A program made the translations under genes and the position numbers. Positions 31,682 to 38,472 of a stretch of 38,924 nt of DNA are shown piece by piece. Under the pieces are notes generated by a model that was given only the letters and a program-made list of their open reading frames with translations, had not been told where the DNA came from and searched no databases. Every line of letters begins with the position of its first letter. The stretch's first letter is position 1. The stretch is from contig LFSM01000109.1 in assembly GCA_001512745.1 (NCBI GenBank), forward strand, positions 1,943-40,866. The letters are read 5' to 3'. Source of the DNA: Clostridiales bacterium DTU032. GTDB taxonomy: Bacteria; Bacillota; Clostridia; Saccharofermentanales; DTU023.

Positions 31682-32203
31682 TTAGGAGAGCAGGGGAACT
31701 TCTTCTCCTGACCACTCACGCTTAGCTTTCCGGTCATCAAAGGCGAGCAGGCCTGCAATGTGTCCTTGTGTGCGTTCTACACCCATAACATTATCGTTAG
31801 CGTTCACTTCTTCTTCAACCTGTTCATTTATATACCATTGGAGGAATAAATGGGCTGCTCTGTCGCCATCTTTCTCGGCTTGTTCATCCATTTTGTTAAT
31901 GCTTTTAGTTATGTACTCTTCATGTTTAAGAGCTGCCTGGAACAAATCTAAGATGGAATTCCATTCTTTGGGCGCTTCGGCTAACTGTAAAAGCTCTACT
32001 GGTTCACCTCTCATAGTGAGGTAGCGTACAAAACCTTCGGCATGGGCCAGCTCTTCTTTGTATTGAATTTCCATCCAATGTCCGGCACCTACCCAGTTGT
32101 TCTGATTTAACCATTCGCTCATAGCGAGATAGATAAAAGCAGAATCATATTCAAGTTTGATCTGTTGATTAAATAATTTGTTAAGTTCCTTTGTCATTTT
32201 CAT
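31682..32203 (-). CDS. ftnA: Ferritin (bacterial non-heme ferritin)
   Basis: Iron storage protein that oxidises Fe(II) at a diiron centre and stores it as mineral in a 24-mer. The 173-residue protein has the four-helix ferritin layout. Ferroxidase ligands are visible in NQQIKLEYDSAFIYLAMSEW and EIQYKEELAHAEGFVRYL (E and ExxH), and later QWYINEQVEEEV. AAGGAG is 9 nt before the ATG at 32203. It has its own terminator. Together with PerR and rubrerythrin 5 kb away, it points to an anaerobe handling iron and peroxide. I saw no convincing PerR box directly upstream. Confidence 0.93.
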   Translation of the reverse strand: MKMTKELNKLFNQQIKLEYDSAFIYLAMSEWLNQNNWVGAGHWMEIQYKEELAHAEGFVRYLTMRGEPVELLQLAEAPKEWNSILDLFQAALKHEEYITKSINKMDEQAEKDGDRAAHLFLQWYINEQVEEEVNANDNVMGVERTQGHIAGLLAFDDRKAKREWSGEEVPLLS

Positions 32204-32399
32204 GTGACGAATCTCCTTCTGCTAAGTAAAAATATAAATCCTGAATTTGAATATACCTTAAGTTCTATTCATGTATAAGCTCTGTTACTTGAGTTACATG
32301 ACAAAACACTGATATAGTTGAAAAAATGACTCGAGGGGCTTGGAAATATCCTACTTGTGTTAGAGTTATTATGATAGTGCTGAGAGGTGGATCAGACAC

Positions 32400-34820
32400 A
32401 TGAGGATGATGGAAATTCGTTGCACGGATCCCTTCGGAAAAGCGGGAGCTGCAGGCAGCGGGGATAGAATAATTCTAGCTAAACGTGGAACGGCTATCCT
32501 TTATTTTGATGCGGCAAATTTGGCTTTACCACCCAATGTATCCATACAGGCAGCACTGTGTGCGCGCAACGCGGCCTTGTCTGATCCCGGAAAAAAGAAG
32601 TTTTTCCAGGCATTTTACGAGGATGAAATTCCTTCTCTGCCCAATTCATTTGAAAAAAAGATTGCTGCCATTACAGCAGTGCCCGGTTTGTCTTTTCTTT
32701 TTGCCAATGACATTACACAAAAGCTGCTGCGCGGTGTAATCAGCGATGAAGATAAAGGCTTATTAATACTTCCCGGAGCGGTGGGAGCAGAAGCCAATAT
32801 TCTGGCTCAGCGTCTGGACTGGAATCTTTTGTTAGACGACTCTGCCGATGTAGTCAGCCAACGCAATCACATTTTGCAATTAAAAGAACGCCTTGACTTT
32901 AGCAGGAGTCAACTAGCGGAAACTGCTCAGGGAAAACTCTACCTTACACGGTCTGAATTGATATCTGTCCTGCAGGATCCTGCACTTAAAGGAGGTGTTC
33001 CAACTGACCTGGTATCTGCTGCGGAAGAGATACGACAGCTGGAGCGCCAGCTCCAAAAGCTCAGGGAGAAGGATGAAGAATTGCGTGACGAACAGCGCAG
33101 CTTAATTCTTTTATCGATTAAAAACGACTATGAGAGTCTTCTGAAACTTAGACAGGATCTGGAGGACCTGGAAAGCAATGCATCACACTATGCGCGGAGC
33201 ATCACAGGGCAGGGTCAGGATATCACGGTACATGAGTTAACACAGCTCATAGCCTTATATCAGGATTACCGGGAAAGAGAAACGAAAAAAGAAGCCCAGC
33301 GCGAGGAAGTTGAAAAAATACAGAAAGACCGTTATCAATGGGAACAGAAACGCATTCTATCAGAGTATAAAGTCAAACAATTACAGGAAAAAGTGGCTGC
33401 ATTCAATATTGAACAGGAAAAATTAATCTCTGAGGCAGAAGAGAAAAACGAAAGAGAAAGAAGCAGAGAAAACACAGGACCTTCTGAAGAAAAGGCTATA
33501 GGGGCAAAACACCTTCTTTTATTAGCTGGTCTGGCTCTAATTTTCCTTGCCTTAATGCTTTTCAAGAGTAGGCAGATTATAGCGATTATCTGCTTTGTAC
33601 TGGCCGGACTTGTCCTGACCAGATCTGCTTTTCTCTTCGCCCGCCCCATTTTCAAGAGGAAGACTGAGTTGAGCGGGAGTTTGGCGGACAGCTTGCGTCA
33701 TCCACTGAAAGCTGAGCTTGATAATCGGCTGACAGAACAGCTGGCAGAGCAAACAGCACTATGGCGTACAGCATTAGCTGAAGCCGACCGCCTGGCAGCA
33801 AATCTTAAGCGGAATCAGATTGCCCTGCATTCTCTTGAAGAAAGCCAGATGCAGGCAGCGAATGAGTTCCTGGGACAATTATCTCTATATGCTGATATCG
33901 ATAATATAAATGATGCGGAATATGTGCTGGATGCTCTCCGTGATCAAAGGCAGTCAGAAAGTTCTTACGATAAGTCAGTTTCAGAACTTTTGCGCCAGAT
34001 AGCAGATGTGCGTAAAGGACGAACTGATTCAGATATGCTGCGTGAATACGAACATGCCTGTGAAGAGCTTTATGGCACCATGCTAACAGGAGACAGCAGC
34101 GAAAACCAGAACATTAACCAGCGTTCACAGGCTTTAAATTATGATAAAAACCGGGCCAGAAGAATTGAAATCGAGCGTGTTGAGTTATCACAGGACATTT
34201 CCCGCCATAAACAGCAGCTGAAAGAGAAGAAAGAGTCTTTAAAAGAGGAAGAAGAGTTTTTGGCCCAGACTCCAAAACTCACCCGCAGACGGGATTTTCT
34301 GGAACAGAGTTTATGGCAAGAGATCGAGGACATCGAGCTGCTGGACCTGGCGATAACAGTGCTCGACTTCCTTTATCTTCAATGGGGAGCATTTCCGCTG
34401 GAACATGTCCGCACTCTGACTTTGAATTACAGCAGACGCCTTCAGGGTATGCAATCTGTTGAGCAGGAAAGAGATGATTGCTTAATTGAGGAGCAGCGGG
34501 GAATCAGAAGGGGAGAGCTGGATATTTTTAAAGCTGTAAAAACCAGGGAAAGAGAACTCTCACTGATCAACAATTCTCCTTCAGATGTTGTTTACCTTGC
34601 CTTTCGGATGGCTTTGCTGGATTGGAAAGGAAGAGACCAGCTTACACCCTTGTTAATTTTTGATTTGCCATTATTTAATACTGCCACCCGAATCAACGAG
34701 TTACTTAATCTGCTGGATGAACGTATGTTGGATCTATCAGCACAGTCGATCTTTTTTACATCAAATAATCTTCTGGCAGAAGCCGCCCGTGAACGCCGGA
34801 TTCCGGTACATAGTTTTTAA
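32400..34820 (+). CDS. Membrane-spliced coiled-coil protein, degenerate YhaN/Rad50-like
   Basis: An 806-residue protein with a globular N-terminus (1-150) and long coiled coils (about 155-360 and 430-650). Two adjacent membrane helices break the coiled coil (about 370-410, LLLLAGLALIFLALML and IIAIICFVLAGLVL). The C-terminus resembles an SMC/Rad50 head. NNSPSDVVYLAFRMALLD lies where YhaN-like ATPases have the signature and QLYLALRLAL helix, and LLIFDLPLFNTATRI lies where they have Walker B and the D-loop. IFFTSNN matches the late switch region. There is no Walker A (GxxxxGKS/T) anywhere, the signature lacks its Gly, and the second acidic Walker B residue is Leu. ATPase activity is therefore unlikely. 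It stands alone, with no nuclease partner. The GAGAGGTGG ribosome binding site lies 11 nt upstream. Confidence 0.65.
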   Translation: MRMMEIRCTDPFGKAGAAGSGDRIILAKRGTAILYFDAANLALPPNVSIQAALCARNAALSDPGKKKFFQAFYEDEIPSLPNSFEKKIAAITAVPGLSFLFANDITQKLLRGVISDEDKGLLILPGAVGAEANILAQRLDWNLLLDDSADVVSQRNHILQLKERLDFSRSQLAETAQGKLYLTRSELISVLQDPALKGGVPTDLVSAAEEIRQLERQLQKLREKDEELRDEQRSLILLSIKNDYESLLKLRQDLEDLESNASHYARSITGQGQDITVHELTQLIALYQDYRERETKKEAQREEVEKIQKDRYQWEQKRILSEYKVKQLQEKVAAFNIEQEKLISEAEEKNERERSRENTGPSEEKAIGAKHLLLLAGLALIFLALMLFKSRQIIAIICFVLAGLVLTRSAFLFARPIFKRKTELSGSLADSLRHPLKAELDNRLTEQLAEQTALWRTALAEADRLAANLKRNQIALHSLEESQMQAANEFLGQLSLYADIDNINDAEYVLDALRDQRQSESSYDKSVSELLRQIADVRKGRTDSDMLREYEHACEELYGTMLTGDSSENQNINQRSQALNYDKNRARRIEIERVELSQDISRHKQQLKEKKESLKEEEEFLAQTPKLTRRRDFLEQSLWQEIEDIELLDLAITVLDFLYLQWGAFPLEHVRTLTLNYSRRLQGMQSVEQERDDCLIEEQRGIRRGELDIFKAVKTRERELSLINNSPSDVVYLAFRMALLDWKGRDQLTPLLIFDLPLFNTATRINELLNLLDERMLDLSAQSIFFTSNNLLAEAARERRIPVHSF

Positions 34821-34892: not shown

Positions 34893-34937
34893 GTATTTAA
34901 AGAAGCAGCAATACGCTTAATGTTGAGGAGGAATGTA

Positions 34938-35990
34938 ATGAGTGAATCAATGTATGCTCTGGTTAAGCCGGAGCGTAAAGAGGGACTTGAGCTCAGCAGG
35001 GTAGCTATACCTGAATGCACGGCTATTGATGTAAAAATAGAGATTTTGAAAACTGCAATCTGTGGTACCGATCTCCATATTTACAACTGGGATGAGTGGT
35101 CACAAACTAATATTAAGCCACCTCTGGTGATTGGTCATGAGTATGTGGGAAGAGTTGTTGAAACAGGATCAATGGTTTCAACGATCGAAGTAGGGGATCT
35201 TGTGTCAGGAGAAGGCCATATAGTCTGCGGAGTTTGCCGGAATTGCCGCGCCGGTCGCCGTGTCTTGTGCCCAAACACGAAGGGTGTTGGTGTGAACCGC
35301 AATGGTGCTTTTGCGGAGTACCTTGTCATTCCTGAACAAAACGTTGTGAAGATCCTGCCCGGTGTTCCCGAAGATATCGTGGCACTATTTGACCCCTTTG
35401 GCAACGCCGTTTATACAGCACTCATGTTTCCGCTGGTCGGTGAAGATGTTTTAGTAACTGGAGCCGGACCGATCGGAATCATGGCAGCGGCAGTAGCTCG
35501 TTTTTGTGGAGCCAGGAATGTTGTTCTGACAGACATCATGCCTGAACGCCTCGAACTGGCACATACCGTCGTTCCTGACATTCGCACTGTGGATACGACT
35601 AAAGAAAAACTACGGGATTTGATGCCTGAACTCAAGATGACAGAAGGCTTTGATATCGGTTTGGAAATGTCAGGTTCCGCTTTAGCGCTGAACGAGATGA
35701 TAAATAGTATGATTACAGGCGGGAAAATTTCCATGCTGGGCTTCCAAAAACCAGGTACAGTAATTGATTGGAATAAAATAGTTATGGGAAGTTTGACACT
35801 ACGTGGAGTTTACGGACGAGACATGTTCGAAACCTGGTATAAGATGCAGGCTTTGGTCCAGGCTGGTCTGGATCTGTCTCCGCTGATCACACATCGTTTT
35901 GACTTCCGCGATTTTGAAAAAGGTTTTGCTGCCATGAATAGTGGTAAGTCCGGCAAGGTTTTGCTGGATTGGACCACTGCCAGAGATTAA
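34938..35990 (+). CDS. tdh: L-threonine 3-dehydrogenase
   Basis: Zinc medium-chain dehydrogenase that oxidises L-threonine to 2-amino-3-oxobutyrate with NAD. From ATG 34938 it has 350 residues. Catalytic zinc ligands are in [16 protein letters not shown] and [10 protein letters not shown]. The structural zinc cluster is [15 protein letters not shown]. The cofactor fold has [20 protein letters not shown]. The HIYNWDEWS segment is typical of TDH rather than other alcohol dehydrogenases. ATG 34920 is in frame, but AGGAGG at 34926-34931 serves ATG 34938 (6 nt). kbl follows after 13 nt and completes the pathway. Confidence 0.94.
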
Positions 35991-36003
35991 GAAAGGGTCT
36001 GAT

Positions 36004-37191
36004 ATGAAAAAGGGACTGAAAATTATCCAGAACAATTTAGATGAGCTGAAAAAATCCGGTCTATATAGCGAGGAACGCATTTTAACAGTGCCTCAGGGAA
36101 GCACGATCGATACTACGGAAACCGAGGGCGTTATCAATATGTGTGCTAACAACTATCTTGGCTTGGCAAACAGCCCGGAGCTGATAGCAGCAGCCAAGGC
36201 CAGCTATGACCGCTGGGGTTATGGCATGTCATCGGTACGTTTTATTTGCGGCACACAAGCACAACATAAGGAATTGGAAAGGGAACTGGCTAAATTCTTC
36301 GGCTTTGAAGACGCTATTCTCTATTCTTCCTGTTTTGACGCTAATGGGGGCCTCTTTGAAACTCTGCTGACTGAGGAGGACGCAATTATCTCGGATGAGC
36401 TCAATCACGCCAGCATAATTGATGGTATCAGGTTGTCCAAAGCTAAGCGTTATCGCTATAACAATAACGATATGGCCCACTTGGAGCAGTGTCTGAAAGA
36501 AGCTGATGCAGACGGAGCCCGCATTAAATTGATCGCCACGGATGGCGTCTTTTCCATGGATGGCATTATCGCTGATCTCAAGTCGATTTGTGATCTAGCT
36601 GATAAATATGATGCTTTAGTGATGGTTGATGATTCCCACGCTTCCGGATTTGTCGGGAAAAAAGGTAAGGGAACACCTGAATATTGCGATGTTATGGGGC
36701 GGGTCGACATTATGACCAGCACTTTGGGCAAGGCTATGGGCGGAGCCTCAGGTGGTTTTACTCTGGCAAATAAGGATATCGTAGCCTGGCTCAGGCAGAA
36801 AAGCCGGCCTTATCTTTTTTCTAACACTCTAGCACCTGCAATCGTTGCTACATCGCTGAAAGTTCTGGATATGCTTGTGCGCGACAGTTATCTGATTGAT
36901 CGGGTTAATGCCAATACCCTATATTTCCGCAAGGAAATTGAAGAACTTGGTCTGGAGATTATTCCGGGTACCCACCCGATTGTGCCGGTTATGGTCTACG
37001 ATGCGAAAAAAGCTCTGGATGTCGCAGATTTCATGCTGAAGAAGGGAATTTATGTTGTAGCCTTCAAATTCCCTGTAGTGCCCCAAGGCCTGGCGCGTAT
37101 ACGCTGTCAGATTTCAGCTGCCCACACCAAGGAAGAATTAGATGCTGCCTTGACGGCTTTTGCTGAAGCTAAGAAAGAATTTGACCTCTAA
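36004..37191 (+). CDS. kbl: Glycine C-acetyltransferase (2-amino-3-ketobutyrate CoA ligase)
   Basis: PLP enzyme that cleaves 2-amino-3-oxobutyrate with CoA to glycine and acetyl-CoA, the second step after Tdh. The 395-residue protein is an alpha-oxoamine synthase: [62 protein letters not shown] and the PLP lysine in [14 protein letters not shown]. An upstream in-frame GTG at 35941 lies inside tdh and is rejected. AAAGG just before ATG 36004, and the family N-terminus ([20 protein letters not shown]), fix the start. The operon ends in a strong terminator. Confidence 0.95.
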
Positions 37192-37273: not shown

Positions 37274-37774
37274 TTAGTACTTAATGAATTTATCGCCGGG
37301 GACGCCGCAGATTTTGCATTTGTCCGGCACGAACTTCTCTATATTTCCGCAGACAGGGCAGAGATAGTAGAAGATTTCTTCGGCATCTGAATCTAAATTG
37401 TCGAGAGCTTCCTGATATAGGCCGGCGTGTACTTCTTCGGCTTTCAGGGCATAAGTGAATGATCTTACGGCCTGGGAATTGCCTTCGGCTTCAGCCTGCT
37501 CGACAAAAGGCGGATACATGCTTGTATATTCGTAGGTTTCACCTTCGACACCATCTTTTAGATTTTCAGCAGTGGTGCCGACCTTGCCTGCAACCTTAAA
37601 GTGGCTGATGGCGTGAATAGTCTCAGCATCAGCAGCAGCTCTGAACAGTTTTGCGGCATTGGTGAAACCATCTTTTTCAGCCTTCTCGGCATATGCTGTG
37701 TACTTTCTGTTTGCTTCTGATTCACCTGTAAAGGCTGTCATCAGATTGTCATAAGTTGTTGTTTTTTCACTCAT
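37274..37774 (-). CDS. rbr: Rubrerythrin
   Basis: Non-heme iron peroxidase that reduces H2O2 in anaerobes. From ATG 37774 it is 166 residues. A ferritin-like diiron domain carries ESEANRKYTAYAEKAEKDG, ADAETIHAISH and ALKAEEVHAGLY. A C-terminal rubredoxin-like iron site has CPVCG and CKICG. AGGAGG (37788-37783) is 8 nt upstream, a clear internal start. The same frame is open for 78 more codons upstream, to an ATG at 38008 that lacks a ribosome binding site, so an N-terminally extended form is formally possible. It lies downstream of perR in one unit with a PerR box, consistent with peroxide induction. Confidence 0.93.
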   Translation of the reverse strand: MSEKTTTYDNLMTAFTGESEANRKYTAYAEKAEKDGFTNAAKLFRAAADAETIHAISHFKVAGKVGTTAENLKDGVEGETYEYTSMYPPFVEQAEAEGNSQAVRSFTYALKAEEVHAGLYQEALDNLDSDAEEIFYYLCPVCGNIEKFVPDKCKICGVPGDKFIKY

Positions 37775-38018
37775 TAATTTTTCCTCCTGAGATTTTTCAT
37801 ATTTTCCTAAAAGCATTTCTACAGTTTCGCGAGGGAAGCCTTGAAGCTGATCCTTTTCTAGCAGAGACAGTAGAAATTGCTTTGAGTTTTCTGTCTGGGG
37901 CAAAAGAAATCCTGATTCGCGCAGAAGTTCCTCTGCCATGATATGGTTTGATTTCTCTATGGCGACAGCAAGCTTGCCGGGTAACGTAGCCGCAAATTTT
38001 ACATACATACTTCGCCAT
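37775..38018 (-). pseudogene. Frameshifted rubredoxin-like ORF between perR and rubrerythrin
   Basis: GGAG (38030-38027) is 8 nt before ATG 38018, which opens a frame reading MAKYVCKICGYV, a convincing first half of a rubredoxin-type iron site. After about codon 12 this frame becomes Arg/Ser-rich and stops at 37797. The +1 frame has no good start but carries protein-like, helical sequence (LAVAIEKSNHIMAEELL, LLSLLEKDQLQGF) and runs without a stop into rubrerythrin. The intact ancestral product probably switched frames near 37970-37985. A mutation, a sequencing error or a programmed +1 shift at GTT ACC CGG would all explain it. No second CxxC is visible. Confidence 0.5.
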
Positions 38019-38034
38019 TAAAATATCTCCTATA

Positions 38035-38472
38035 TTATTTTTCAGATTCTTCTTGATCGGCTTTCAAGCAGTCCGGGCAAAGTCCTCTGAAATATACATC
38101 TCTTTCCTCTATCATAAAATCTGCAAGATCTGTTGATTCAATCTCTTGCATATTCAGGCGAAAGTCGAAAAGTTTCTTGCAGGATGTGCATTTGAAGTGT
38201 CCATGGCTTTCGGTGATTATTTCATAACGGCTTTCACTGTCTTCAATTGATAAAGCATTGACCAGACCGGCCTCTTGCAGCAGATGTAATGTGTTATACA
38301 CAGTAGCCTTGGAGAGACTGGGCAGCTCCTTTTGTAAGTCTAAATAAATCTCATCTGCGCTGGGATGTGTTTTATTTTGGACGAGATATTCCAGCAGCTT
38401 CAGTCTCTGATGTGACAAGCGAATGTTTATTGTTTGAAGTATTTCTTTTAGATTATCAATATTATCAATCAT
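38035..38472 (-). CDS. perR: Fur family peroxide-responsive repressor PerR
   Basis: A 145-residue Fur-family winged-helix regulator. The DNA-binding region is RLSHQRLKLLEYL to LSKATVYNTLHLLQEAGLV. The metal-binding part has SESRYEIITESHGHFKCTSC, and a second Cys pair lies in GLCPDC, giving the structural zinc site. PerR and Fur differ subtly. I favour PerR because the gene sits directly upstream of rubrerythrin and behind a PerR-type box. The ATG at 38472 has no obvious ribosome binding site, and I see no better alternative. The gap to the next ORF is 16 nt. Confidence 0.88.
   Translation of the reverse strand: MIDNIDNLKEILQTINIRLSHQRLKLLEYLVQNKTHPSADEIYLDLQKELPSLSKATVYNTLHLLQEAGLVNALSIEDSESRYEIITESHGHFKCTSCKKLFDFRLNMQEIESTDLADFMIEERDVYFRGLCPDCLKADQEESEK

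Follow-up and report, generated by a model that had tools for sequence, protein, structure and literature searches.

The window is a stretch of 38,924 nucleotides from a source genome (G000; 1.6 Mb, 88% complete) to which, among named genomes, Mageeibacillus sp. and further Clostridia MAGs lie nearest. An open reading frame at 32400-34820 on the plus strand begins with ATG and encodes a protein of 806 amino acids; re-reading the frame from the window gave exactly these boundaries. It is divergent from a ferritin gene (31682..32203, minus strand), and the intergenic region between the two (32204..32399) carries GAGAGGTG ahead of the ATG, which by sequence only resembles a ribosome-binding site. 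Sequences resembling promoters and terminators around the gene occurred at chance or only modestly above it and were left unused. Downstream on the plus strand lie a tdh-like zinc alcohol dehydrogenase gene (34920-35990) and kbl (35941-37191), which together with ferritin serve as markers of a conserved locus. The earlier note had reported that the usual YhaO/SbcD-like nuclease neighbor is absent, and this is correct: ferritin stands upstream and tdh/kbl downstream instead. No gene in the neighborhood names a cargo. A rubrerythrin-type protein and a PerR-like regulator are encoded at 37274-38472, near ferritin, making this an oxidative-stress/iron neighborhood.

The protein is built of two coiled coils, as judged from sequence, joined by a two-helix membrane hairpin and flanked by what is left of two head lobes, all encoded on the plus strand. 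The N-terminal head-lobe remnant (residues 1-150; 32400..32849) has lost its Walker A site, with RGTAILYFDAANLALPP in place of the GFSLLYGPNESGKST of intact orthologs. The first coiled-coil arm (residues 151-365; 32850..33494) holds the most conserved stretch of the protein family, residues 221-283 (SIKNDYESLLKLR ... ITGQGQDITVHEL), and the second arm (residues 423-655; 33666..34364) holds a conserved motif, IADVRKGRTDSDMLREYEHACEELYG, at residues 534-559. Between the arms, hydropathy places membrane helices at residues 372-390 and 393-411 (33513..33632); by the same measure the hairpin is common, in the same position, to every ortholog checked at the ferritin-kbl locus, intact or degenerate. 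The C-terminal head lobe (residues 656-806; 34365..34817) reads NNSPSD, IFDLPL, and NTATRI at its motif positions, keeps A734, R736, P750, and Q782, and gives a profile match as a lobe alone. From the open reading frame, motif alignment, and profile comparison, we annotate the whole gene as a putative pseudo-ATPase of YhaN type. The earlier reading of head, coil, two membrane helices, coil, and head in YhaN fashion is supported, the hairpin by hydropathy and the descent by locus and profiles. Pfam and NCBIfam searches with the 806-residue protein returned no family and only weak, unrelated membrane matches, and when the degenerate family was searched against PDB sequences, only chance coiled-coil matches came back.

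State of the ATPase motifs

The source genome has one clear paralog (at C62; L024:6376-10315), an intact and longer YhaN with YhaO adjoining, signature MSGGTYDQ, and Walker B LILDD; it is the kind of intact YhaN/YhaO pair for which the earlier note had proposed searching the genome. Within the family, this second, longer YhaO-YhaN class was seen only in genomes with a lesioned locus (10/10; L024, L090, L091, L078, L085, L086). No G-x4-G-K-[ST] (Walker A) sequence occurs anywhere in the 806-residue protein. Its signature-aligned stretch is LINNSPSDVVYLAFRMAL, compared with YMSGGTYDQVYLALRLAL in the intact paralog (NNSPSD where SGGTYD is expected), and its Walker B/D-loop stretch is PLLIFDLPLFNTATRI, compared with PLILDDVLVQFDEKRM (IFDLPL versus ILDDVL). 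Alignment to both the paralog and the intact orthologs puts NTATRI at the D-loop position, and on the H-loop side FFTSNN stands against the paralog's LFSCHE. These comparisons bear out what had been noted of the single sequence, namely a missing Walker A, a broken signature, and IFDLPL and NTATRI at the remaining sites.

We compared the gene across draft MAGs of seven genera of one family, where g1 is the window's own genus and g2 to g7 are the others; because the genomes are drafts, single absences may be gaps. Every ortholog read in g1, g3, and g6 lacks Walker A, which is intact in g2 (four species), g4, g5, and g7. The g1 orthologs are 52-76% identical to the 806-residue protein and those of g3 about 25-31%, and all of those read are without the ATPase motifs; some g3 sequences retain a ghost of Walker A, IYGNRDPSGDSPF, compared with LYGPNESGKSTIL in intact orthologs. 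Degeneration of the motifs, whose conservation the earlier note had left to be checked, is thus common to the orthologs read in three genera. In the C-lobe, structural residues are near-invariant (the YLAxR helix, the P in the Walker B strand, and the Q preceding the H-loop), in contrast to the nucleotide contacts. The curated profile AAA_27 matched none of the 21 degenerate sequences (0/17 and 0/4) versus 8/8 intact orthologs. We conclude that the protein is a predicted pseudo-ATPase in which every ATP-contacting motif has been lost. The loss is old, since it is common to every ortholog read in three genera that form one clade. Of the earlier suggestion that orthologs might carry an intact Walker A lost here by recent mutation, the first half holds, in sister genera; recent mutation is ruled out because the loss is shared by three genera.

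Descent from a YhaO-YhaN pair

An intact YhaO-YhaN pair (Walker A GxNESGK[ST]) occupies the transketolase-ferritin-...-tdh/kbl locus in g4, g5, and g7, and four species of g2 carry an intact YhaO-YhaN beside transketolase. In g6, YhaO overlaps a YhaN without Walker A or a recognizable signature, and among the locus neighbors read in g1 and g3, no YhaO or SbcD adjoins the lesioned YhaN. The g6 YhaO-type nuclease (L038:4326-5615, L041:8989-10293) has all of its metal-binding motifs intact, and the YhaN that it overlaps has no recognizable C-lobe; by its motifs this YhaO is a nuclease whose ATPase partner no longer works. Two more conserved genes (about 281-297 and 470 amino acids) lie directly upstream of YhaO in g4 and g7 (L072:3348-5656, L075:3275-5537, L076:9320-11574); neither is found at the window locus.

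Profile comparison connects the degenerate and intact proteins. A profile of g1 and g3 matched the intact YhaN profile across 609 columns (99.9%), and the g6 profile matched it at 99.7%. Taken alone, the g1/g3 C-lobe matched the intact YhaN lobe at 98.5% (five column-shuffled controls gave ≤1%) and the second YhaN class at 98.7% (shuffles ≤1%). The g1/g3 N-lobe was barely recognizable (9.3%), its weak match being confined to the first ~40 residues with the first strands in register (score 25.3; 200 shuffles scored no higher than 19.3). In g6 the pattern is reversed, with the N-lobe at 99.1% and the C-lobe at 1.2% (shuffled controls ≤1%). Opposite head lobes have thus been lost, g1/g3 keeping the C-lobe and g6 the N-lobe, and the coil-membrane-coil core is kept in all. 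The match between the 806-residue protein and the paralog sequence also falls on the C-lobe. The degenerate proteins of g1, g3, and g6 form one clade with support 99/99, whose long branches make long-branch attraction possible; g1 groups with g3 in the kbl and transketolase trees.

These results support descent of the gene from the YhaN of a YhaO-YhaN (Mre11-Rad50-like) pair that was anchored in the membrane of an ancestor, and the profiles suggest that the C-lobe may have an ABC-type head fold. The protein is like YhaN (AAA_27, PF13514; partner YhaO) in its domain order, its hairpin between coils, and its C-lobe profile, and its relatives at the same locus stand beside or after YhaO. It is unlike YhaN in having no Walker A, signature, Walker B acidic pair, or D-loop, in the loss of the YhaO neighbor in g1 and g3, and in escaping the AAA_27 profile. 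The Rad50/SbcC heads of PDB entries 3qku, 1f2t, and 6s6v are matched in sequence by intact orthologs from the same locus, and no Rad50/SbcC head in the PDB is matched by the degenerate family. The membrane hairpin here would take the place of the Rad50/SbcC zinc hook.

Retention, selection, and repeated lesions

We searched 188 genomes of the order with a profile and found full-length members in 5/5 g1 and 11/13 g3 genomes, together with weaker members in 4/5 g6 genomes; both g3 genomes missing the gene are ≤74% complete, and one g1 copy is split across two contigs. Outside the family, the same search gave short matches only, mostly to the C-lobe of canonical relatives. We found no stop codons or interruptions in the ortholog frames. 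In the three g1 pairs with usable dS (the others were set aside because dS was near-saturated), dN/dS was 0.12-0.20 for the lesioned YhaN and 0.12-0.24 for both head lobes, compared with 0.12-0.15 for the intact YhaN paralog and 0.04-0.06 for kbl and tdh. The dN of the lesioned gene is ~3-5 times that of the flanking metabolic genes, so the constraint on it is moderate. The lesioned YhaN is under purifying selection and not neutral, and because stops are absent and dN/dS is close to that of the intact paralog, it is no pseudogene. The orthologs and dN/dS also rule out a chance open reading frame. The earlier claim of an intact frame of 806 codons is thereby upheld. Conservation is greatest in the middle of the first arm and not at the ATP site: 17 of the 56 near-invariant columns fall within the 63 residues 221-283, and a second peak, at GRxDxxMxREYE in the second arm, lies on the other side of the membrane hairpin.

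Lesions also occur in g2. The P-loop reads GINEIEKTII in G005, GKNESEKTTI in G017 (with Walker B LILNDPF), and FNENKNNELL in G029, where YhaO reads GNSD instead of GNHD and HAD instead of HGD; four close g2 relatives of these genomes keep an intact P-loop. The three lesioned g2 YhaN genes lie at L146:414-2651, L081:3454-5856, and L083:1950-3822. Parsimony on the tree requires three changes, two of them forced by well-supported branches. P-loop lesions appear to have arisen in g2 at least once more, and probably twice more. The substitution of E for the G before the Walker A lysine would be expected to abolish ATP use.

A putative ATP-independent membrane scaffold

The accepted picture of SMC/Rad50-type proteins is that of clamps driven by ATP. 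We lean toward the reading that the 806-residue protein is a YhaN-derived, constitutive, ATP-independent, membrane-anchored scaffold or tether. The YhaN of an ancestral YhaO-YhaN pair would have lost all of its ATP-contacting motifs and become a pseudo-ATPase, YhaO would have been lost in g1 and g3, and the membrane hairpin would have been kept. The arms may still pair with each other as an antiparallel coiled coil, which the hairpin would suspend from the cytoplasmic membrane, and the C-lobe remnant may still fold, offering a docking or dimer surface in place of the ATP-driven clamp. With the coil so suspended and the C-lobe as a docking surface, the protein would thus act constitutively and independently of ATP; we infer a scaffold or tether role, in which it may hold DNA, a repair factor, or another protein. 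Since g6 and g1/g3 kept opposite lobes, no head surface is common to all. In manner of working, and only in that, the protein may be compared with EzrA-like membrane-anchored scaffolds, which carry a long cytoplasmic coiled coil on a membrane segment and have no ATPase; EzrA has one N-terminal helix, and the hairpin here is mid-chain.

A rather unlikely alternative, though the one with most in its favor, is that the protein is a regulatory pseudo-subunit that uses its C-lobe or coils to pair with the active C62 YhaN (SbcC in g3) and tunes or localizes a nuclease complex. An intact YhaO-YhaN pair is present in the window's genome, the C-lobe (the likeliest pairing part) is conserved in g1/g3, and a second, long pair occurs in 10/23 lesioned-locus genomes versus 0/10 intact-locus genomes (Fisher p 0.015, uncorrected for kinship). 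However, in about ten g3 and two g6 genomes the lesioned protein occurs with no second pair, and the C-lobe is lost in g6. Since a YhaO-YhaN pair is missing from most g3 genomes, it is no obligate partner; SbcD, in turn, is present in most g3 genomes but was not found above the cut-off in g1. With no active partner constant, an obligate heterodimer is unlikely, and pairing with an active YhaN is possible in g1. That the gene is instead a decaying YhaO-YhaN relic, its frame surviving while function fades, we consider improbable. The absence of YhaO in g1/g3, the vanished motifs, the opposite lobes lost by lineage, and the staged decay in g2, down to the GNSD and HAD of YhaO, would all suit a relic, but dN/dS near that of the intact paralog, frames free of stops, and an old, clade-wide retention in g1 and g3 would not.

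Unorthodox nucleotide use, with a new binding site replacing the P-loop, is very improbable: constraint does act on the C-lobe, and g1 still has an acidic residue in the Walker B strand (IFDLPL), but that residue is absent from much of g3 (FLMAPT), the g6 C-lobe is unrecognizable, and the Walker A lysine has no common replacement residue across g1/g3. Hardly credible at all is an unrelated membrane coiled-coil protein that merely resembles YhaN. Such a protein would account for the Pfam, NCBIfam, and PDB sequence searches without a match, but not for a locus shared with intact YhaO-YhaN, the C-lobe profile matches to both YhaN classes against their shuffled controls, the paralog match on the C-lobe, or an order-wide search that reaches canonical YhaN C-lobes.

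YhaN-YhaO itself is poorly studied. A literature search on YhaN, pseudo-ATPase SMC/Rad50 proteins, and degenerate SbcC found nothing relevant, and in a full-text search for YhaN and YhaO neither name stood in the title or abstract of the six matches. The family described here keeps its arms and membrane anchor under selection after the loss of all ATP motifs. We give about an even chance to the broader proposal that in a clade of Clostridia, and more than once at one locus, a Rad50-type protein became a structural protein that is anchored in the membrane and independent of ATP. With intact, half-lost, and lost stages at that one locus, the ATP-independent part of YhaN function becomes directly testable. 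If the broader proposal is true, it would show that YhaN's membrane-coil part can serve a function apart from that of the ATP-driven nuclease clamp.
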